Shown one piece after another: positions 1-10,581 of a stretch of 10,581 bases of DNA. The translations under genes and the position numbers were made by a program. Each line of letters begins with the position of its first letter. Position 1 is the stretch's first letter. Below the pieces are notes generated by a model. It saw only the letters and a list, made by a program, of their open reading frames with translations, was not told the origin of the DNA and made no database searches. This DNA is from SAR92 clade bacterium (GTDB lineage: Bacteria > Pseudomonadota > Gammaproteobacteria > Pseudomonadales > Porticoccaceae), in assembly GCA_018607545.1 (NCBI GenBank), contig JABBBF010000095.1, positions 1-10,581 of the forward strand, read 5' to 3'.

Positions 1-1
1 T

Positions 2-901
2 TTTGAACGCGCCATGACACAGATGTCGAGTCAGCAGGCTAAGGTCGCTGATCTACAGTCGAAGTTGGCCACCGGCCAGCAAATTACGCGACCAAGTGAC
101 GATCCGGAAAAGGCTGGTGTGATCCAGCGACTCACCAGCGCTAACCAACGATTAGAAGGGTATCAGAATAATCTCACAGCACTTAATAGCCGCTTGGGCA
201 CAGAAGAGGGCGCTCTGAAGTCCTCAGAAAATATCTTACAGCGTATGCGTGAGTTAGCAGTGCAAGCTAGCAGTGACAGTTTTTCGCCAGCGGACAGAGA
301 GATTATTGCCACCGAGGCCAGCGCACTGCGTGATCAATTAGTCTCTCTGGCCAATAGTGCTGATGCCTCGGGAAATTATGTCTTTGCCGGCGCGATGACG
401 TCAACTGTGCCCTTTGCTGAGAATGCAGAGGGTGAAACCGTGTACCAGGGCGATAATAGTCGCATGCTGGTGGATGTTTCGGATCAGCGACAACTTGCGC
501 TCAATAAGCCGGGCAATGAGGTCTTTTCCAGCGTTGTTCGAGAAACTAGTAATGGCACCTTTGAACGAGTTGGCTTCTTTGCCATTATTGATGATTTTAC
601 CGCCGCCCTAGAAAATAACGATACAGATCAGATTGGGGCAAGCCTCGGCGAAATTAGCGATTTGACACAGGGAATGGCTATGGCTATGGCCGATGTGGGC
701 AGCCGCATGACTACAGCACAATCTCAAGTAGACGCTCTTACCGAGACTAAAGTTCGCTACCAGGCATTGCTCTCAGCGGCTCAGGATTTGGATTATACCT
801 CGGCGATTACTCAGCTCACTTCAGAGATTATGTCTCTGGAGGCAGGGCAGAGTAGCTTTATGAAAATTTCACAATTAAGTTTGTTCGACTACATCCGATA
901 A
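2..901 (+). CDS. flgL: Flagellar hook-associated protein 3 (FlgL), 5' end outside window
   Basis: FlgL forms the ring that joins the hook to the flagellin filament and is exported by the flagellar type III system. The reading frame is open to the left edge. Codons before the ATG at 14 read F-E-R-A, continuing the helix typical of FlgL (usual N-terminus MRIST...), so the true start lies a few codons upstream and the ATG at 14 is internal. The flagellin-like D0/D1 signature is clear: L-A-T-G-Q-Q-I-T-R-P-S-D-D-P near residues 20-35, then [12 protein letters not shown]. The C-terminus, with M-K-I-S-Q-L-S-L-F-D-Y-I-R, is the classic FlgL ending and separates it from true flagellins, which end in QQAQNVL-type sequence. 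Total length of roughly 300 residues fits the family. It lies 66 bases upstream of fliD on the same strand and is probably co-transcribed with it. Confidence 0.93.
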   Translation, partial: FERAMTQMSSQQAKVADLQSKLATGQQITRPSDDPEKAGVIQRLTSANQRLEGYQNNLTALNSRLGTEEGALKSSENILQRMRELAVQASSDSFSPADREIIATEASALRDQLVSLANSADASGNYVFAGAMTSTVPFAENAEGETVYQGDNSRMLVDVSDQRQLALNKPGNEVFSSVVRETSNGTFERVGFFAIIDDFTAALENNDTDQIGASLGEISDLTQGMAMAMADVGSRMTTAQSQVDALTETKVRYQALLSAAQDLDYTSAITQLTSEIMSLEAGQSSFMKISQLSLFDYIR

Positions 902-931
902 CTTAACTATCTAGAAATATTTTTCGCCACA

Positions 932-946
932 TCGGCGGAGCGCCGA
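932..946 (+). other. Small GC-rich stem-loop between flgL and fliD
   Basis: TCGGCG at 932-937 pairs with CGCCGA at 941-946 around a 3-base loop. No T-run follows on either strand, so it is not a convincing intrinsic terminator. It could be an mRNA-processing or stabilising element in a flgL-fliD transcript, or chance. The fliD ribosome site (AAGAG, 10 bases before the ATG) lies just downstream and is rather weak. Confidence 0.3.
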
Positions 947-967
947 ATTGTAAAAAAGAGATTAAAA

Positions 968-2395
968 ATGGTCGACACCTCAACAGCTATTTCGACACAA
1001 ATAATGACATCACTGGGCGCAGGCTCTGGTGTTGATATTGTTTCCCTAGCGCGAAATTTGACCAACGCTGAGCAGGTTCCAAAGACAGCAGCGATTCAGA
1101 GTGCCATCGATGCAGCAGAAGCGCAGGTTTCCGCTTATGGGCTAATTTCCTATCAGCTAGGGCTACTCCAAAGCGCTTTTGAAGGTCTTAATGATGCTAA
1201 AGAGGTTACGGATAGTTATGCCAGTAGTACTGACACTGCAATGCAGTTCACAGCATTTGACGGTACCGAAGTCGATGGTAGCTACAACATAACAGTCAAT
1301 CAGTTAGCGCAAGAAAAGATAATGATCTCGGACGAATACAGCTCCACCAGCGCTGTCCTGAGTGCCAGCTCATTTGATCTTTCGGTTACGGTTGGCAATA
1401 CGTCTACAGCCACTACTTCCATTACAGTCGATACAATGACTCCTCAGGGCGTTGTTGACGCAATTAATGAGGAGAGTATGGGTGTTACAGCCAGTCTGGT
1501 TGATACTGGAATTGATGGCACTAACTATCGAATTATTCTGACTGGCGAGACAGGCAGCGAAAGTGCCTTTACAGTCACTTCAGATCCAGATCTCGGCTTC
1601 GGGGATGCGGGCAACACGCTGCAAGCGGCTCAGGATGCGCAAATTGATTTTGATGGGCTTACCCTCACTCGAGATAGCAATGAATTCTCTGATGTGGTGA
1701 GTGGTGCGACATTAACGCTCTATGAAACCACCACATCAGCGGTAACCGTGGCGGTCTACAGTGACACCTCAACATTGAAAACCAAGCTTGAAGATGTTGT
1801 CGCTCTCTATAACGATTATCGCGGTCTCATGGACGAACTCACAGCAACAACCATAGACGAGGATGTAGAGCTGAGTGGCGCATTGCAGCGAGATTTAACC
1901 ACGGCACGCTATATCACTGACCAGATCAGGACTGCAATACTTGATGATTCCTCAACTGCATCTGGTAACGTATCCGCGTTTAGAGATATTGGTATTAGTA
2001 TTGATAGTAAAGGTGCTCTGACCTTTGATGAAACTACCTTCGATGACGTAATTCAAGACAGCTATGACGATGTGGTTACCATGCTGACGGCTAATACCAA
2101 TAACCAAAGCCTCTATAGTACCGACGGCATGGGTTTGGCGCAGGATATAGCTACTATTATTGACGGTATTGTTGACATCGACGGCGTCCTAGCGACCCGA
2201 GAAACCAATGCTGAAGCGACAGTGATCGACTATCAAGATGAGCTGACCGTTCTAGAAGCCAGAATGAGCGCAGTGTACGACCGATACTTATCGCAGTTTA
2301 CCGCCATGGAGCTTCTCACTAACAAGCTCAATAACGTCAAGGACTACCTGACCGGGCAGCTGGAGGTCCTCTCTAAAGCTTATGATTCAGATTAA
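968..2395 (+). CDS. fliD: Flagellar filament cap protein FliD (HAP2)
   Basis: FliD caps the growing filament and promotes flagellin insertion at the tip. The 475-residue length is close to the usual size (468 in E. coli). Residues about 12-108 match the FliD N-terminal domain: S-L-G-A-G-S-G-V-D-I-V-S-L near 15-27, then A-E-Q-V-P-K-T and a heptad-rich helix. Residues about 135-205 form a flagellin hook IN-type motif (G-V-V-D-A-I-N-E, then Y-R-I-I-L-T-G-E-T-G). Residues about 220-465 match the FliD C-terminal domain, with S-D-T-S-T-L-K-T-K-L-E-D-V-V-A-L-Y-N-D-Y, the G-I-S-I-D-S-K-G-A-L-T-F-D motif and a C-terminal coiled coil. The start at 968 is supported by the N-terminal match and by AAGAG upstream. 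It follows flgL, whereas in many gammaproteobacteria fliD follows flaG. No fliS is seen in the window. It converges on the sulfotransferase gene with a 22-base gap and no obvious terminator between them. Confidence 0.95.
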   Translation: MVDTSTAISTQIMTSLGAGSGVDIVSLARNLTNAEQVPKTAAIQSAIDAAEAQVSAYGLISYQLGLLQSAFEGLNDAKEVTDSYASSTDTAMQFTAFDGTEVDGSYNITVNQLAQEKIMISDEYSSTSAVLSASSFDLSVTVGNTSTATTSITVDTMTPQGVVDAINEESMGVTASLVDTGIDGTNYRIILTGETGSESAFTVTSDPDLGFGDAGNTLQAAQDAQIDFDGLTLTRDSNEFSDVVSGATLTLYETTTSAVTVAVYSDTSTLKTKLEDVVALYNDYRGLMDELTATTIDEDVELSGALQRDLTTARYITDQIRTAILDDSSTASGNVSAFRDIGISIDSKGALTFDETTFDDVIQDSYDDVVTMLTANTNNQSLYSTDGMGLAQDIATIIDGIVDIDGVLATRETNAEATVIDYQDELTVLEARMSAVYDRYLSQFTAMELLTNKLNNVKDYLTGQLEVLSKAYDSD

Positions 2396-2417
2396 AATAT
2401 TCTCGCAGCTAATTTAA

Positions 2418-5400
2418 TCAAAAGAAATCGGTTAGGTTTTTCTCATAATTACGCCAAGCTTCAGAGCTGTTTTTATAGAGCTTTTGTGTCACTTGATTAT
2501 TCGATGCAGTAAGTACCGCACGCTTGTTTTTATGAAAGTCCATGCATCTCTGTTCCCAGTCAAGGCCCACATAATCAAGCAACTTTCGTGTCTCCTGTTC
2601 TTGATTTTCAGTCAATGTTTCATAGTTAAGTTCAAATATTCGTCCCGGATACTTGGCCTTAAAAAACCCCATAAGATCCACCTGCATCTTCTGATAATGC
2701 TCCAGGTCAGCTAGGTCATGGGAAAATCCATTACCGTTAGACGCGAAGTAGGTCTTAAAAATTGACCAGCATGTGGCTCTGGCATCGCGAACTGTATAGA
2801 TTATTTTCGCTTCAGGAATTGCCGATAAAATAAGCCCCGTCCAGCGAAAATTGAGCGGCATTTTATCTGTTACGTAAGGCAAATTTGAAATTCCAGCCGT
2901 GTTTTCAAGGTAATAAGACCTGACCTGTTGCAACTGCTTTTTGGACAGCGTTATACCCTGCCAATCTAAGGTCTTAATACAGTCATTTAGGGTATTTAAT
3001 TCACCGGCACCGAACACCTTCGAGTGGCTCGAGAGAATTTGTTCTGCAAGAGTTGAACCAGATCTCGGCATTCCGAGAATAAAAATCGGTGTCTGGCTTA
3101 TCTCATTCTCGAAATCCTCTCCGGGTAATAAGCTTGGCACATTTCCCATAAAGGTCTGCAGAACGCCAGAAAAAAGCTTTTTGTCTGACTGAAGGTCATA
3201 GTTTAGCTCGCTTTTCCTGAGCCTGTTGCCTTCAACAAAATGGTCAAAGGCCCTGTTGTAGTCTTTGATGTCCTCATAGGCTTTTCCCAAGGCAAAATTG
3301 AGATCGATTTTGTCGCATTCAGGCGCTGAGGGATTATCCAAAAGTCGCTGCATTTGTTCACATTGGTTATCAAAAGAGCTGTATTTTTTAACCGAAGAAA
3401 GATGTCGGTGACCGATAGCAAATTCGGGGGCTATTTCAATCGCCCTTTTGTAGCTCTCTGCCGCTCCGTTGGAGTCGCCTTTTGCCTTCAAAACAATGCC
3501 TAATAAATTATGTGCCTCTGGATAATCTTCTTTGATAGACAACGCCGTTCGAACAGACTGTTCAGCGAGTGCTATATCGCCTATCTCCTTATACATAACC
3601 GCTAGACTGTTGTGGGCATCCGCCAGCAAAGGATTGATTTCCAGCGCTTTATTTAGGCAGTCTAGCGCCTCGTCATAGCGACGCAGTTTTTTGGCTAACA
3701 CTAAACCTTTGTTATTCAATAAAACTGACGATTGTGGATAGCGCTCAAGCAGGTGATTTAATGCCTTGAGTGCACCTTCGTTGTCCTCACTCTCGAACAT
3801 TTTAACAATTGGCAGTATCAATTCTTGTGGTGGATCCATATTTTTCATAACAGGCAGCTGAGTTACTTCTTTGGAGACCAATCCAAGAATTGGTAAAATT
3901 TGGTTTTCAAATTTACGCCATTGCTGCGAACTATTTTGATACATTTTTTTACGTACCTGACGAGCAGAGCTAGTAGATACCGCTCGTTTATTCTGATGGA
4001 AATCAACGCAGGCGTCTTCCCATTCAACGCCGATATAATTAAGCACTTTTTGTGTTTCTTCAGTTTGGTTTTCAGTCAGTTTTTCATAGTCTAAGTCGTA
4101 AATGGAATTGGGATATAGCGAGCGCCAAAATTCCATCAGATCAGTGTATAGATCGTAATAGGCACTAATATCATTCAGATCATTAGCATAGCCATTGCCA
4201 GTAGAAGAGAAGTTATGCTTATAAATGGACCAACATGTAGCCAATTTATCCCTTTGTATATTGATTATTTTCGCCTCTGGAATAGCTGCGAGAATAAATC
4301 CAATCCAGCGAAAGTTTACTGGCATCTTGTCGGTAATAAATTCTTTCTCAGAAAGTTGGCCAAGAGCTTCAAGATAGTCATTACGACAACTGTGCAGCTG
4401 TTGTTTGGAGAGTGACTGGGTGTCCCAATTTATATTTTTGATCGATTTTGCTAGGGACTCTAGTTCGCCAGCACCAAAGACCTTAGAGTGGCTCGATATT
4501 ATCTGCTCTACCAATGATGAGCCTGATCTCGGCATGCCGAGAATAAAAATCGGAACACTCTTTGCTTTCTGCTCTAAATCTCTGCCATAACTAAGCTTTG
4601 GAGGACCCTTTTTGAATATAGGTTTAATCGCCGAGAAAAGGGTTTGGTCCGTGACGATAGTATACTGACTTTCTTTTTTCTTGAGTCTGTTCCCTGCAGC
4701 ATAAAATTCAAATGCCAAGGCGTAATTATGTAATCCCTCATGAACATTCGCGAGTGCAAAATTGAGATTTGCTTTGTCTTTATTCGGCAACACTAGATCA
4801 TCTAGCAGAGCAGTCATTATGTTAATTTGTGGGTCATCGACTTCAATTTTCTTAGATTGGCAAATACCAAGATGCGCAGGGGATAACCGCGGATTCAAAC
4901 GCGCGGCCTTAGTGTAAAACTCAAGTGCCATTTTATTATCGCCAAGATGGGTATATGAATTGGCTTTATGAAGATGGGCCTCGGCATAGTTTGGGTGCAG
5001 CTGTATCGCAGTGGAAAAGGCTTCAATAGCCGCCTCGTTGTCACCGATCGCGGCCAGGACAATACCTTTATTGTTCAGCGCGTCTGGAAATTTGGGTTTT
5101 AATTTTAGCGCTTTGGAAAAGCTTTTTAATGCTTCTTGGTGTTCTCCTAGAGAGCCCAATACAGCACCCATATTGCTATGTGCTTCGGCATATTCCGGCT
5201 CAAGTCTAATTGCTTCTTTGTAGCTATGCAGAGCAGGTTCAAGATCCTCTTTGTCTTTTAAACTAGCACCTTTATTATTGTGTGCCACGGCAAAACTTGG
5301 ATCAATTTGGATAGCTCTATTGTAATAAACGATTGCTTGATCTAACAGTCCCAATCTGGTGCTAGCAACGCCAGCGAGATTGACTAACAATTTCGAGTTT

Positions 5401-5681
5401 GGATAGATTTTAATCAGGCTATTACAGATTTCAATGGATTGATTATAATGCCCGTTTTCAAACGCGATATGCGCTGGCATAAATGTTTTGTCTGGCAGCG
5501 GTTTGGCAGGTTTCGGACTTTTTATTTTTTCAGAAAAAAGTATTTTTAAGCCGTTAATAGTCGCTTTGTTTAAAGGATCCAATTGTAAAATTTCAGTTAG
5601 TATAGCTTCAGCCTCATCATACTGTCTTAGCAGTGTTAGTAAGGCGGCTTTTTTAATTTTCGGTTCTAACTGTCCGGACAT
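2418..5681 (-). CDS. Tandem double TPR-sulfotransferase (two TPR + PAPS-dependent sulfotransferase modules)
   Basis: The predicted enzyme transfers sulfate from PAPS to an acceptor held by its TPR domains. Module A (residues 1-605) has TPRs, including five in exact 34-residue register from about 98 to 267, then a sulfotransferase domain at about 376-596. Module B (about 615-1087) repeats the plan with roughly four TPRs (619-755) and a second sulfotransferase (864-1087). Both carry the 5'-phosphosulfate loop G-M-P-R-S-G-S-(S/T) at 382-389 and 870-877. Both keep G-A-G-E-L, whose Glu (406, 894) aligns with the catalytic base of tyrosylprotein sulfotransferases, and the 3'-phosphate Arg/Ser pair (R477/S485 and R965/S973). 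Both end in K-R-A-V-x-T-(S/A)-S plus an S-S-x-x-W-R motif. There is no signal peptide or membrane segment, so it is probably cytoplasmic. AAGGA lies 7 bases before the ATG. The usual TPR-sulfotransferase has one module of about 500-700 residues, so this is a duplication-fusion. Its place beside flagellin genes suggests filament modification, but the substrate is unknown. Confidence 0.9.
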   Translation of the reverse strand: MSGQLEPKIKKAALLTLLRQYDEAEAILTEILQLDPLNKATINGLKILFSEKIKSPKPAKPLPDKTFMPAHIAFENGHYNQSIEICNSLIKIYPNSKLLVNLAGVASTRLGLLDQAIVYYNRAIQIDPSFAVAHNNKGASLKDKEDLEPALHSYKEAIRLEPEYAEAHSNMGAVLGSLGEHQEALKSFSKALKLKPKFPDALNNKGIVLAAIGDNEAAIEAFSTAIQLHPNYAEAHLHKANSYTHLGDNKMALEFYTKAARLNPRLSPAHLGICQSKKIEVDDPQINIMTALLDDLVLPNKDKANLNFALANVHEGLHNYALAFEFYAAGNRLKKKESQYTIVTDQTLFSAIKPIFKKGPPKLSYGRDLEQKAKSVPIFILGMPRSGSSLVEQIISSHSKVFGAGELESLAKSIKNINWDTQSLSKQQLHSCRNDYLEALGQLSEKEFITDKMPVNFRWIGFILAAIPEAKIINIQRDKLATCWSIYKHNFSSTGNGYANDLNDISAYYDLYTDLMEFWRSLYPNSIYDLDYEKLTENQTEETQKVLNYIGVEWEDACVDFHQNKRAVSTSSARQVRKKMYQNSSQQWRKFENQILPILGLVSKEVTQLPVMKNMDPPQELILPIVKMFESEDNEGALKALNHLLERYPQSSVLLNNKGLVLAKKLRRYDEALDCLNKALEINPLLADAHNSLAVMYKEIGDIALAEQSVRTALSIKEDYPEAHNLLGIVLKAKGDSNGAAESYKRAIEIAPEFAIGHRHLSSVKKYSSFDNQCEQMQRLLDNPSAPECDKIDLNFALGKAYEDIKDYNRAFDHFVEGNRLRKSELNYDLQSDKKLFSGVLQTFMGNVPSLLPGEDFENEISQTPIFILGMPRSGSTLAEQILSSHSKVFGAGELNTLNDCIKTLDWQGITLSKKQLQQVRSYYLENTAGISNLPYVTDKMPLNFRWTGLILSAIPEAKIIYTVRDARATCWSIFKTYFASNGNGFSHDLADLEHYQKMQVDLMGFFKAKYPGRIFELNYETLTENQEQETRKLLDYVGLDWEQRCMDFHKNKRAVLTASNNQVTQKLYKNSSEAWRNYEKNLTDFF

Positions 5682-5716
5682 TATTGATTCCTTTATAAGC
5701 TCTATGATAGCTTTGT

Positions 5717-5745
5717 ATAGTAAGTTATTTTCGGCTCTTCGTTAA
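5717..5745 (-). promoter_or_regulatory. Possible sigma-70-type promoter for the TPR-sulfotransferase gene
   Basis: On the minus strand TTAACG (5740-5745) and TACTAT (5717-5722) are separated by 17 bases, each matching the -35/-10 consensus at four of six positions. It lies about 36 bases before the start codon and downstream of the flagellin terminator hairpins, so the gene probably needs its own promoter. The match is modest. Confidence 0.3.
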
Positions 5746-5762
5746 GGCTATTCCGTGCCAAT

Positions 5763-5795
5763 AAAAAAGCCCCTTCTGATAACAGTCGGGGCTTT
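5763..5795 (-). terminator. Intrinsic terminator of flagellin copy 1 (second, T-tailed hairpin)
   Basis: On the minus strand AAAGCCCC pairs with GGGGCTTT (8 bp, plus-strand arms 5766-5773 and 5788-5795). A short CTG/CAG inner stem may form within the loop, and the sequence runs on into TTTTTTAT. This is a classic rho-independent terminator oriented with the flagellin gene, 55 bases or more past its stop codon. It would insulate the sulfotransferase gene from strong flagellin transcription. Confidence 0.8.
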
Positions 5796-5796
5796 A

Positions 5797-5827
5797 AATG
5801 GTTGGGAGCAAAAAGCCCCCAACCATT
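5797..5827 (-). terminator. First stem-loop downstream of flagellin copy 1
   Basis: AATGGTTGGG (5797-5806) pairs perfectly with CCCAACCATT (5818-5827), a 10-bp stem with an 11-base loop, starting about 22 bases after the flagellin stop codon. No T-run follows directly, since the next hairpin begins 1 base later. The two stem-loops therefore form a tandem 3' end that could both stop transcription and protect an abundant mRNA from 3' exonucleases. Confidence 0.6.
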
Positions 5828-5849
5828 GGTACAACCTAGCTAGGAAGAA

Positions 5850-7901
5850 TTACTTCAACAGAGCTAGTACTGACTGAGCCTGCTGGTTGGCTTGCGACAA
5901 CATTGCCGTGCCAGCCTGTGCGATAATCTGCGCACGGGCCAATTCAGTTGTCTCAGCAGCATAATCGGCGTCCTCGATACGGCTTCTTGATGCGCTCGTG
6001 TTTTGAGAGACATTCATCAGGTTATCTACGGTGTACTCTAGGCGGTTGATCGCTGCACCGAAGGTGGCGCGTTGCGAGGCAAGGCCCGCAAGGGCAGTAT
6101 CAAGCGTACTGATAATACCGGTTGTTTCGGTATCGATCGTCGCGCTGGAACTCATGGCACCACCAAGAGCTACACCAAATACACCTGTACTAGATGCAGT
6201 CACGGCGGCAGCACCAGCAGTACCCTCGGCAACAGTGTCAGCAGTGACAACTGTGATAGTTGGTGCTGATGAGACTGCGGCGGCTGTATCTTGAGTCATG
6301 GTTAGGTTGGTGGTGCCTGCGTAGGTGTAGTCAGCCGTAGCGGAAGTTGTGCTAGCATTTAGGGCTGTGACCAGCGCTGAATTGTCTGTTTCACTGCCTG
6401 TTACGGTGTAGCTTGTACCATTGGCTGTAATCACATCACCTGCAGCGTAGTCCGTTACATCAATGGCACTGGTGTACAGAGCGGCCGCCGATGCAGCACC
6501 TGCTGTAGCTTCAGTTGCGGTGTAGGCCTTTGCTACAGCAGTGGTTGGATCTGTTGCAACTACCGCCGCCGCATCCTGGGTCATGACAATGTCAGCACCC
6601 GAAGTGGAATAGGTATAGGCTGCTGTTGCAGTAGTGGTGCTGGCATTGAGTGCTGTGATCAAGCTCGAGTTATCTGTTTCACTACCAGTCACAGTGTAAG
6701 CTGTACCATTAGAGGTAATGATATCGCCCGCATCATAATCTGTGACATCAATAGCGCTAGTATAAACAGCAAAAGCAGTTGCGGAACCTGTCGTGGTGGT
6801 TGCGGTTGTAACTGCAACTGCACCTACAAGTGTAGGGTCAGAGGCAACTGCACCGGCAGCATTAGCTGTTGCCGTAAGTGTTGTGCCACTGGCGGACCAG
6901 GTGTATGGAGTTGCAGTGGTCGCAGTGCTTAGATTCAGAGCAGTAACTAAAGTCGACAGATCGGTTTCAGAACCGGTTGCAGTGAAAGTCTCGCCAGCAA
7001 TTGTAAGGGTGTCGCTCGCTGCGTAGTCGCTAATATCAATGGTAGCGGTATAGACGGCAAAAGCATCTACTGCACCGGCTGTTGTCTCAGTATTAGTAAG
7101 GGCAATGCTGCCGATGGCGGTGGGGTCAGAAGCAATAACGCCGCCCGTGTCTGCAGTCATTGTCAGTGTCGTGCCTGATGCGGAGAATGTGTAAGGCGTT
7201 GCAGTGGTTGCCGTGCTGGCGTTCAGTGCAGTGACAAGGGTAGACAGATCGGTTTCAGACCCGGTTGCAGTGTAAGTGACGCCAGCTACAGCAAGGGTAT
7301 CGCCGGAGCTATAATCACTGATATCAATTGTTGAGGTGTAGACGGCTGCTGTGGCAGCGGTAACAGTCGAAGATCCGCCAGTGCCATCGGCCATATTAAA
7401 GTCGGCAAAGTCAACGGTGACAGTTTGAGAATCGTTGGCGCCAATCTGAAAAGACATAACCCCGTTAGAGCCAGAGCCTTCGCTACCGTCCAAAATTGCC
7501 ATGCCATTCCACTGAGTACCGTCGACCACTCGATCAATTTCATCAGCCAGTGCGGCAAATTCTATGTTTAGGTTTGCGATATCGGCATCGGTATTTGTGC
7601 CGTTTGCAGATTGCACTGCCAGTTCTCGCATACGCTGTAGCATGTTACCAATTTCAATGGCCGCGCCATCAGCAGTTTGGATCATGGAGATTGCATCGTT
7701 AGCGTTGCGACCGGCCTGGTTCAGGCCATTAATTTGCGACGTCATTTTAGAGGCAATTGCGAGCCCGGCGGCATCGTCAGCGGCAGAGTTAATACGCTTG
7801 CCCGTTGATAATCGCTCCATTGTTTGTTCTAGAACGCGTTCGTTTTTTGATAGTGCGTTTGACGTCACTGTCGCACTAATATTAGTGTTTATTACAGCCA
7901 T
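5850..7901 (-). CDS. fliC: Flagellin (copy 1, intact, 683 residues, repeat-containing outer domain)
   Basis: Structural subunit of the filament, secreted by the flagellar type III system. The start at 7901 ([12 protein letters not shown]) is chosen over an in-frame ATG at 7970 for three reasons: it is the universal flagellin N-terminus, GAGG lies 8 bases upstream, and the upstream ATG falls at or before the expected start of transcription from the sigma-28 promoter. Residues 1-170 form the D0/D1 arm ([12 protein letters not shown], then [12 protein letters not shown]). Residues 187-570 are four tandem 96-residue repeats. Residues about 580-683 form the C-terminal D1/D0 arm (S-R-I-E-D-A-D-Y, then A-N-Q-Q-A-Q-S-V-L). 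It is larger than the 498-residue E. coli FliC because of the repeats. Between R124 and R611 the only basic residue is K458. The gene has its own promoter and terminator. Most of its length is identical to copy 2. Confidence 0.94.
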   Translation of the reverse strand: MAVINTNISATVTSNALSKNERVLEQTMERLSTGKRINSAADDAAGLAIASKMTSQINGLNQAGRNANDAISMIQTADGAAIEIGNMLQRMRELAVQSANGTNTDADIANLNIEFAALADEIDRVVDGTQWNGMAILDGSEGSGSNGVMSFQIGANDSQTVTVDFADFNMADGTGGSSTVTAATAAVYTSTIDISDYSSGDTLAVAGVTYTATGSETDLSTLVTALNASTATTATPYTFSASGTTLTMTADTGGVIASDPTAIGSIALTNTETTAGAVDAFAVYTATIDISDYAASDTLTIAGETFTATGSETDLSTLVTALNLSTATTATPYTWSASGTTLTATANAAGAVASDPTLVGAVAVTTATTTTGSATAFAVYTSAIDVTDYDAGDIITSNGTAYTVTGSETDNSSLITALNASTTTATAAYTYSTSGADIVMTQDAAAVVATDPTTAVAKAYTATEATAGAASAAALYTSAIDVTDYAAGDVITANGTSYTVTGSETDNSALVTALNASTTSATADYTYAGTTNLTMTQDTAAAVSSAPTITVVTADTVAEGTAGAAAVTASSTGVFGVALGGAMSSSATIDTETTGIISTLDTALAGLASQRATFGAAINRLEYTVDNLMNVSQNTSASRSRIEDADYAAETTELARAQIIAQAGTAMLSQANQQAQSVLALLK
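5899..7484 (-). repeat. Long exact repeat, unit 1 (1586 bp, inside flagellin copy 1)
   Basis: Line-by-line comparison shows this stretch to be the same, base for base, as 8180-9765, at a constant offset of 2281. It covers flagellin residues of about 139-667: the end of the N-terminal arm, the whole outer domain and most of the C-terminal arm. Outside the limits the two genes differ at many synonymous and nonsynonymous sites. This pattern fits gene conversion between direct repeats. Confidence 0.92.
6192..7343 (-). repeat. Four tandem 288-bp repeats in flagellin copy 1
   Basis: In translation the outer domain divides into four units of exactly 96 residues: R1 7056-7343, R2 6768-7055, R3 6480-6767, R4 6192-6479. 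Each begins (V/L)-Y-T-(S/A)-x-I-D-(I/V)-(S/T)-D-Y. Each shares T-G-S-E-T-D-(L/N)-S-(T/S/A)-L-(V/I)-T-A-L-N about 26 residues later, and R1-R3 also share A-S-D-P or A-T-D-P, which becomes S-S-A-P in R4. R1 and R2 form one subfamily and R3 and R4 another. The fold is probably beta-rich and recalls the flagellin hook IN motif, but that assignment is tentative. Confidence 0.9.
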
Positions 7902-7975
7902 TTGAGTATCCTCGGGAAAATTATTGAATCTGTTTTTAAATTCATTCGCGTGTATCTCAGCGAAGTTCAATATAA

Positions 7976-8002
7976 GGATCGGCAGTAAATCTTTTTTCTT
8001 TA
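7976..8002 (-). promoter_or_regulatory. Sigma-28 (FliA) promoter of flagellin copy 1
   Basis: On the minus strand TTTAAAG (TAAAG at 7998-8002) is followed by GCCGATCC (7976-7983), giving TAAA-N15-GCCGATCC against the consensus TAAA-N15-GCCGATAA. Spacing is exact and six of eight -10 bases match. Transcription would begin near 7968-7970, leaving a leader of about 67 bases before the ATG at 7901. The leader ends in GAGGATACTC (7904-7913), which contains the ribosome site and could fold as a tiny hairpin with GGA partly in the loop, a feature that CsrA-type regulators bind. That last point is speculative. Confidence 0.8.
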
Positions 8003-8043
8003 AACTCAGTTTGAAATCAATCTAATAGTAGGTGTGATTATTA

Positions 8044-8079
8044 GGATAAGCCTCTTATTTAAGGGTAAAAGGCTTATCC
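8044..8079 (-). terminator. Stem-loop downstream of flagellin copy 2
   Basis: GGATAAGCC (8044-8052) pairs perfectly with GGCTTATCC (8071-8079), a 9-bp stem with an 18-base loop that itself holds CTTA/TAAG. It lies 48 bases past the copy 2 stop and just upstream of the copy 1 sigma-28 promoter. No strong T-run follows on the minus strand, so it may be a weak terminator or an mRNA 3' stabiliser. Confidence 0.45.
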
Positions 8080-8179
8080 CATAATTCTGTGAGATGCAAA
8101 AAGCTATATCAAAGCTTAACGCACAGGTTAGCCTTTGAGGAGTGTTAGAACGTTCTGCGCCTGCTGGTTTGCTTGAGCT

Positions 8180-9765
8180 AACATTGCCGTGCCAGCCTGT
8201 GCGATAATCTGCGCACGGGCCAATTCAGTTGTCTCAGCAGCATAATCGGCGTCCTCGATACGGCTTCTTGATGCGCTCGTGTTTTGAGAGACATTCATCA
8301 GGTTATCTACGGTGTACTCTAGGCGGTTGATCGCTGCACCGAAGGTGGCGCGTTGCGAGGCAAGGCCCGCAAGGGCAGTATCAAGCGTACTGATAATACC
8401 GGTTGTTTCGGTATCGATCGTCGCGCTGGAACTCATGGCACCACCAAGAGCTACACCAAATACACCTGTACTAGATGCAGTCACGGCGGCAGCACCAGCA
8501 GTACCCTCGGCAACAGTGTCAGCAGTGACAACTGTGATAGTTGGTGCTGATGAGACTGCGGCGGCTGTATCTTGAGTCATGGTTAGGTTGGTGGTGCCTG
8601 CGTAGGTGTAGTCAGCCGTAGCGGAAGTTGTGCTAGCATTTAGGGCTGTGACCAGCGCTGAATTGTCTGTTTCACTGCCTGTTACGGTGTAGCTTGTACC
8701 ATTGGCTGTAATCACATCACCTGCAGCGTAGTCCGTTACATCAATGGCACTGGTGTACAGAGCGGCCGCCGATGCAGCACCTGCTGTAGCTTCAGTTGCG
8801 GTGTAGGCCTTTGCTACAGCAGTGGTTGGATCTGTTGCAACTACCGCCGCCGCATCCTGGGTCATGACAATGTCAGCACCCGAAGTGGAATAGGTATAGG
8901 CTGCTGTTGCAGTAGTGGTGCTGGCATTGAGTGCTGTGATCAAGCTCGAGTTATCTGTTTCACTACCAGTCACAGTGTAAGCTGTACCATTAGAGGTAAT
9001 GATATCGCCCGCATCATAATCTGTGACATCAATAGCGCTAGTATAAACAGCAAAAGCAGTTGCGGAACCTGTCGTGGTGGTTGCGGTTGTAACTGCAACT
9101 GCACCTACAAGTGTAGGGTCAGAGGCAACTGCACCGGCAGCATTAGCTGTTGCCGTAAGTGTTGTGCCACTGGCGGACCAGGTGTATGGAGTTGCAGTGG
9201 TCGCAGTGCTTAGATTCAGAGCAGTAACTAAAGTCGACAGATCGGTTTCAGAACCGGTTGCAGTGAAAGTCTCGCCAGCAATTGTAAGGGTGTCGCTCGC
9301 TGCGTAGTCGCTAATATCAATGGTAGCGGTATAGACGGCAAAAGCATCTACTGCACCGGCTGTTGTCTCAGTATTAGTAAGGGCAATGCTGCCGATGGCG
9401 GTGGGGTCAGAAGCAATAACGCCGCCCGTGTCTGCAGTCATTGTCAGTGTCGTGCCTGATGCGGAGAATGTGTAAGGCGTTGCAGTGGTTGCCGTGCTGG
9501 CGTTCAGTGCAGTGACAAGGGTAGACAGATCGGTTTCAGACCCGGTTGCAGTGTAAGTGACGCCAGCTACAGCAAGGGTATCGCCGGAGCTATAATCACT
9601 GATATCAATTGTTGAGGTGTAGACGGCTGCTGTGGCAGCGGTAACAGTCGAAGATCCGCCAGTGCCATCGGCCATATTAAAGTCGGCAAAGTCAACGGTG
9701 ACAGTTTGAGAATCGTTGGCGCCAATCTGAAAAGACATAACCCCGTTAGAGCCAGAGCCTTCGCT
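8180..9765 (-). repeat. Long exact repeat, unit 2 (1586 bp, inside flagellin copy 2)
   Basis: Partner of 5899-7484 in direct orientation. The boundaries are sharp: the first difference at the promoter-proximal end is 9766 (against 7485), and the identity ends at 8180 (against 5899). The frameshift near 9931 lies about 165 bases outside the tract, in the diverged N-terminal part. Confidence 0.92.
8473..9624 (-). repeat. Four tandem 288-bp repeats in flagellin copy 2
   Basis: Same four 96-codon units as in copy 1: R1 9337-9624, R2 9049-9336, R3 8761-9048, R4 8473-8760. The unit-to-unit differences are identical in both genes, so the array was copied as a block and was not expanded independently. 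Confidence 0.9.
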
Positions 9766-10371
9766 GCCGTTCAAAATAGCCATGCCATTCCACTCTGTAG
9801 CATCAACTATGCGATCAATCTCGTCAGCCAATGCGGCAAACTCTATGTTCAAATTAGAGATATCAGACGGCGAATAGGAATCACTGGTTGCTTGAACTGC
9901 CAGTTCACGCATGCGCTGAAGCATATTGGTGAATTTCAATCGCGGCGCCATCTGCGGTCTGGATCATGGAAATTGCGTCATTAGCATTACGGGCTGCTTG
10001 GTTCAGGCCGTTTATCTGCGACGTCATTTTAGAGCCAATTGCGAGGCCAGCGGCATCGTCACTTGCAGAGTTAATGCGTTTACCGGTTGATAAGCGTTCC
10101 ATGGTTTGTTCCAGGACGCGTTCGTTTTTGGTTAGTGAGTTTGCAGTCACTGTCGCACTAATGTTGGTGTTTATTACGGCCATAATTCTTAACTCCTGAA
10201 TTTGAGGCTCGCCAGTTCAAAAGGGTTGCCTTTAAATATCCAAACTTTCCTGCCTTTAGTGCAGATATGAATTAGATATAGCAAAATGGCCATAAAAAAA
10301 GGCATAACTTTCAGTATGTTAGGAGATTTCAGGGGAGGATTGACACAAGGTGGCAAAGGCGATGCGGCAAG

Positions 10372-10389
10372 CCGGCAAAGAGTTGCCGG
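10372..10389. other. Hairpin in the flaG-flagellin intergenic region
   Basis: CCGGCAA (10372-10378) pairs with TTGCCGG (10383-10389) around a 4-base loop. It lies in the 262-base gap between the flaG stop and flagellin copy 2, about 57 bases past flaG. It has no T-run, so it is at best a factor-assisted terminator or an RNA-stability element. Apart from the AGGAG ribosome site of copy 2 (near 10193-10197) I see nothing else convincing in this gap. Confidence 0.4.
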
Positions 10390-10445
10390 ATTCTAGTTGG
10401 ATATCACGATTTTTGGGCTACTGGGCTATCGAGTCCAGGGTTTTT

Positions 10446-10581
10446 TTAATAAACATCATCAAACAGAATGCCCTTGAGTGACTCCAAGTTGCGGGCAATT
10501 TGCAAAACGGCCTCGCCAGGTAGAGTTCGAACAACCTCGCCAGTGTCCTCATTGGTGACCTGAACCACAACTCTGTTGGAT
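10446..10581 (-). CDS. flaG: FlaG family protein, C-terminal part only (5' end outside window)
   Basis: Reading the minus strand from the right edge gives 44 codons and a TAA stop at 10446-10448. The peptide has the FlaG C-terminal pattern: V-V-V-Q-V-T-N-E-D-T-G-E-V-V-R-T-L-P, then a helix L-Q-I-A-R-N-L and the ending G-I-L-F-D-D-V-Y. FlaG is a small (about 110-150 residue) protein linked to flagellar filaments in Pseudomonas, Vibrio, Aeromonas and Campylobacter, where it affects filament length or assembly. Its exact role is not settled. Here it lies upstream of the flagellin genes in the same direction, while in the common gammaproteobacterial order it follows flagellin and precedes fliD. 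The start and N-terminal half are not visible. Confidence 0.85.
   Translation of the reverse strand, partial: SNRVVVQVTNEDTGEVVRTLPGEAVLQIARNLESLKGILFDDVY

Follow-up and report, generated by a model that had tools for sequence, protein, structure and literature searches.

What does a sulfotransferase with two catalytic modules, each preceded by tetratricopeptide repeats (TPR), do beside flagellin genes? The question is raised by a stretch of 10,581 nucleotides from a SAR92 clade bacterium of the Porticoccaceae (assembly GCA_018607545.1, contig JABBBF010000095.1, positions 1 to 10,581; hereafter the window), in which such an enzyme is encoded on the minus strand at 2418-5681. A first-pass annotation had suggested a flagellin sulfation system. 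With moderate confidence, we favour the reading that the product is a cytoplasmic enzyme dependent on 3′-phosphoadenosine 5′-phosphosulfate (PAPS), similar in its action to the Caulobacter protein FlmG, which is dedicated to the neighbouring flagellin and sulfates this partner before export. This reading is based on the genes, domains, active-site residues, fold match, synteny, co-occurrence with a flagellin type and the gene for adenosine 5′-phosphosulfate (APS) kinase.

The open reading frame (ORF) begins with ATG, spans exactly 2418-5681 and encodes 1087 residues. Its parts are as follows.

2418..5681, minus strand: double TPR-sulfotransferase gene, 1087 residues (ORF, Pfam, homologues)
4611..5666, minus strand: module 1 TPR superhelix, residues ~6-357 (TPR matches in Pfam; helices in the whole-protein model)
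3882..4562, minus strand: module 1 sulfotransferase domain, residues ~374-600, with R385, E406, K452, R477 and S485 (Pfam, alignments, model)
3147..3827, minus strand: module 2 TPR superhelix, residues ~619-845 (Pfam and further analyses)
2421..3098, minus strand: module 2 sulfotransferase domain, residues ~862-1087, with R873, E894, K940, R965 and S973

A chance ORF is ruled out by full-length homologues (90, 81 and 72% identity in a large protein set) together with synteny in a second species; in the same set, four full-length double enzymes reach 72% identity and the next best match has 40%. Sulfotransfer_3 (PF13469) matches two stretches of the protein, with an E-value of 4.6e-81 for the whole chain and 272.6 bits against a curated cut-off of 27. 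Many TPR families match as well, and no glycosyltransferase is found among the Pfam families shown. The two modules share 44% identity across 454 residues, in agreement with the first-pass description of two TPR plus sulfotransferase modules in one chain.

Each module possesses the P-loop GMPRSGS, a glutamate 21 residues past the P-loop arginine (R385/E406 and R873/E894), a lysine (K452 and K940) and an Arg..Ser pair with a spacing of 8 (R477/S485 and R965/S973). Both modules thus have the hallmarks of PAPS-dependent sulfotransferases, namely the loop for the 5′-phosphosulfate and the Arg/Ser for the 3′-phosphate. These ten positions of the catalytic and PAPS sites are invariant in four aligned orthologues, down to 72% identity, and also in ten aligned double proteins. 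In a phmmer search against the PDB, module 2 aligned with the tyrosylprotein sulfotransferases TPST1/2 across the domain (E 2.8e-5 to 1e-3), and its active-site residues matched theirs with equal spacing, the counterparts and their roles being, as we take them, those of R78, E99, K158, R184 and S192. The top match by E-value was a short one to the CurM sulfotransferase (8.4e-6), ahead of the TPSTs. Both the TPST-type fold and the catalytic glutamate are present in the double enzyme. Judged from its sequence, the protein is confirmed as a predicted PAPS-dependent sulfotransferase with two TPST-like modules whose active-site residues are intact.

A strong match for APS kinase, the PAPS-making step, was found in 11 of the 12 genomes searched, including the near-identical genome G001 as well as G194, G124, G336 and G046; the match in G021 was weak and partial (E 9.6e-4). 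In the whole-protein model (pTM 0.49), the helices of the module 1 TPR part are seen and the mutual placement of the modules is not fixed. Since this leaves the module arrangement undefined, processive action of the two sites on the flagellin repeats, another first-pass idea, is speculation.

Is the enzyme specifically associated with flagellin? In the window, flgL and fliD occupy the plus strand, and the double enzyme and the flagellin pair that come after them are encoded on the minus strand.

14..901, plus strand: flgL-like hook-filament junction gene, its 5′ end possibly outside the window (Pfam Flagellin_N; matches FlgL of Ww453)
968..2395, plus strand: fliD, convergent with the sulfotransferase gene (Pfam FliD_N, FliD_C)
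5766..5827, minus strand: pair of tandem hairpins with a U run after the second, resembling a terminator, in the gap from flagellin 2 to the enzyme gene (z -4.9 for the fold of 5682-5849)
5850..7901, minus strand: flagellin 2, intact, ~683 residues, central domain of four 96-residue repeats (Pfam Flagellin_N, Flagellin_C)
8128..10183, minus strand: flagellin 1, same central domain, frame broken near 9931 (two ORFs, 8128-9951 and 9905-10183; comparison with G001)

As the first-pass annotation stated, the enzyme gene lies directly downstream of the flagellin pair in the same orientation, with 168 bases between it and flagellin 2. The gene order is the same in G001 and in the Porticoccaceae metagenome-assembled genome (MAG) Ww453 (G194), whose enzyme is 71% identical at the protein level. 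Ww453 is the only orthologue with readable surroundings; for P0002 and P0003, at 90 and 81% identity, the neighbourhood was not readable.

Both window flagellins contain a central domain in which a repeat recurs four times at intervals of 96 residues, every copy having a tyrosine in an acidic setting (e.g. IDISDYSSGD). Among 112 Porticoccaceae genomes, the double enzyme is found in two, and the enlarged four-repeat flagellin in the same two; in both, the enzyme gene is placed between flagellin and fliD. No enzyme is present at this junction in any of the seven congeners in which flagellin and fliD visibly lie face to face. Other genomes supplied 91 distinct flagellin ORFs, none of which has the repeat motif, and only 26 proteins of the large set match the central domain. 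The double enzyme is thus paired with an enlarged repeat type of flagellin, and the link is specific but narrow. A high tyrosine content is not in itself a signature of a linked TPR-sulfotransferase; the flagellins of G020 and G014 are equally rich in tyrosine, and no linked TPR-sulfotransferase was found there.

Between positions 9500 and 10322, alignment of the window with G001 shows roughly 108 mismatches plus 23 columns with gaps; the remaining 9.5 kb has 21 mismatches. To explain this divergence and the frame break of flagellin 1, either the flagellin copies have recombined or the assembly is chimeric here.

In the mechanism that we favour, the TPR superhelix would hold the flagellin client chain in the manner of OGT or FlmG, and the fused TPST-type domain would modify the held chain with sulfate from PAPS. 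The sulfate would be put on in the cytoplasm, before export, and the acceptor would be located within the repeated outer domain. It is from context and fold that we infer flagellin to be the substrate and sulfate the product.

Which residue could be the acceptor? The repeat tyrosines are located at positions 194, 290, 386 and 482 of the translation window:5850-7892:-, near acidic residues, and are kept in 25/25, 25/25, 13/25 and 22/25 flagellins, respectively. For tyrosines of the domain as a class, conservation is 0.88 against a domain average of 0.77 (permutation p 0.014, 25 flagellins), with p 0.066 when compared with structural residues. At some repeat positions the tyrosine is replaced by phenylalanine or valine, as would be seen for a buried aromatic residue. 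Between the flagellins of G001 and Ww453, 15 of 18 tyrosines, 72 of 105 threonines and 27 of 48 serines are kept. Tyrosine conservation, being not clearly above that of structural residues, does not decide the acceptor; tyrosine is a plausible one, with serine/threonine or a glycan as the alternatives. A more far-reaching proposal is that the dedicated two-module enzyme performs direct O-sulfation, most simply on the tyrosines of the acidic I-D-x-x-D-Y repeats, and that it belongs to a wider bacterial class of OGT-like TPR-sulfotransferases acting in the cytoplasm on still-unfolded exported surface proteins (flagellin and perhaps TonB-dependent receptors). We put this forward tentatively, as possible but rather unlikely in its entirety.

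Several observations weigh against flagellin as the dedicated substrate. First, a double hairpin with U's after it is predicted for the 168 bases between flagellin 2 and the enzyme gene, and the orthologous gap in Ww453 has a like structure (z -4.0). A simple flagellin operon is weakened by this terminator-like gap in both species, and a shared transcript of flagellin and enzyme is not established because of it. The hairpins were not listed by a consensus scan that allowed loops of at most 8. The sole sigma28-like match lies upstream of flagellin 2, and the enzyme gene has no such match in front of it; a promoter scan yielded 15 sites where 9.1 were expected, and its output was set aside. Flagellin and enzyme are likely to be transcribed separately, as far as these signals indicate. 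Second, the fold match leaves the substrate unfixed. Third, the two genomes that share the co-occurrence are related and carry a single linked cassette, which does not amount to independent events, so hitch-hiking could account for the pairing. Fourth, the more distant homologues are mostly unlinked. Flagellar linkage was found in one (G124) of 93 TPR-sulfotransferase loci, which were the top-scoring matches, picked by score and not by linkage and hence not random, nine of them under 10 kb. Of the flagellin loci listed for the order, 40 were hand-picked, and none has a TPR-sulfotransferase. In G124, a single-module enzyme lies between flaG and a flagellin; 0 of 21 other genomes of its genus have a close homologue, the best reaching 34% identity. 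Two loci outside the 93 were found by coordinate comparison: in G336, a 396-residue ORF that ends near the contig end lies ~0.9 kb from a flagellin and divergent from it, and in G046, a genome with PF01973 genes, a 562-residue ORF is convergent with flgL on a 5-kb contig without flagellin.

The TPR-sulfotransferases are consequently not a universal partner of flagellin. The first-pass annotation held that homologues lying mostly away from flagellar genes would speak against its proposal; this is what the distant homologues do, whereas the orthologue in Ww453 is flagellin-adjacent. What stands of the proposed system is its modules, its placement conserved in Ww453 and G001, and its co-occurrence with the flagellin type; linkage to flagellar genes does not extend to most distant relatives.

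The best-surviving alternative, which we judge unlikely, is that the real substrate is another one, such as an outer-membrane protein, a polysaccharide or a small molecule, and that the flagellin adjacency results from chance insertion and hitch-hiking of a cassette. Related enzymes are non-flagellar in 92 of the 93 loci, and two further TPR-sulfotransferases in G001 itself lie far from flagellin. A TonB-dependent receptor is found within 1.5 kb of 55 of 117 TPR-sulfotransferase ORFs (loci L038-L200), a count that is partly circular and has no background rate behind it, the hidden Markov model (HMM) having been seeded with 12 TPR-sulfotransferase neighbours. Independently of this HMM, the Pfam Plug domain is present in 37 of 53 large neighbours (600-1100 residues, out of 184 adjacent ORFs). 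The leading PDB match, CurM, is a polyketide sulfotransferase. Against another substrate, however, the position of the gene is kept at 71% protein identity, the congeners are without both the enzyme and the flagellin type, and single sulfotransferases adjoin flagellar genes in three further families. In a tree of 118 domains, the flagellar ones fall in several places with 5 changes, at least 3 of them forced, and the bootstrap is not settled; a single flagellar clade receives no support. A starred fork of 5 rows holds both window modules along with a Marinicaulis protein. Flagellar linkage seems, from this tree, to have arisen more than once. What the flagellar and receptor-linked enzymes have in common could be that they modify proteins exported from the cytoplasm in an unfolded state.

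Alternatively, the sulfate could be added to a glycan already on the flagellin rather than to an amino-acid side chain, which we consider improbable. There is an archaeal precedent in sulfated N-glycans, as described in the accessible part of a study on Halobacterium (PMC11980604), and the replacement of tyrosine by phenylalanine or valine means that tyrosine need not be the acceptor at those repeat positions. On the other side stand the results for glycosylation genes. PF01973, which we take to be the Maf-type domain, is absent in 11 of the 12 genomes (including G001, G194, G124 and G336) and present in G046. Glyco_transf_41 is absent in all 12, with Caulobacter as positive control, other glycosyltransferase families having been left out of the search and sugar-biosynthesis genes not having been looked for systematically. 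It is very improbable that the protein serves mainly as a TPR chaperone or export factor that binds flagellin, with its sulfotransferase activity lost or unimportant: exported proteins commonly have TPR chaperones and export requires a binding step, but the ten active-site positions are invariant across the orthologues and double proteins.

The wider survey gave further observations on the TPR-sulfotransferases. A gammaproteobacterial contig (L043, 5716-17721) has TPR-sulfotransferases adjoining a TPR-Glyco_transf_41 (OGT-like) gene, as if the two kinds of transferase were interchangeable on a common TPR scaffold. At L193, L196, L182 and L184, two to four TPR-sulfotransferase ORFs stand in tandem within a locus, and such clusters are a likely source of fused double enzymes. 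In a Desulfobacula MAG (L039, 13171-13872), a SapC-family gene directly follows a TPR-sulfotransferase. A first scan of genome contigs with the enzyme protein alone gave no match.

If our favoured reading of a dedicated flagellin sulfotransferase is true, sulfate joins the known modifications of bacterial flagellin, and the enzyme that adds it would have the architecture of OGT with another catalytic domain in place. It would also provide a specific gene-substrate pair to test, and a lead on the role of the many marine bacterial TPR-sulfotransferases, which here often lie beside outer-membrane receptors.

How does the double enzyme compare with known systems? It is built like OGT and SPINDLY, but its catalytic domain is a TPST-type sulfotransferase, and the genome searched has no Glyco_transf_41. 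The TPSTs, to which it is ~19-20% identical, are Golgi enzymes without TPR. A bacterial tyrosine sulfotransferase is known in RaxST of Xanthomonas, the substrate of which is a small secreted peptide. The single-module enzymes beside TonB-dependent receptors share its domain order and Pfam families at 30-48% identity, but have one module, another neighbour and a separate part of the tree. In Halobacterium, sulfate is likewise placed on a secreted glycoprotein, though by archaeal enzymes that act on N-glycan sugars. Among open-licence papers, as far as their accessible text goes, no sulfation of a bacterial flagellin was found. The nearest described system is FlmG, a TPR flagellin glycosyltransferase of Caulobacter; according to the accessible part of its description, flagellins are bound by the TPR part, without which specificity is lost, and cytoplasmic modification is possible (PMC7591256). 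FlmG and the double enzyme both combine TPR with a fused transferase and are linked to flagellin genes; the latter differs in having a sulfotransferase in place of the glycosyltransferase, and two modules in one chain. By analogy it may work like FlmG, but it is not a FlmG, since a glycosyltransferase domain is absent among its Pfam families. What is new is the pairing of enzyme and flagellin together with the double module, built from known parts.
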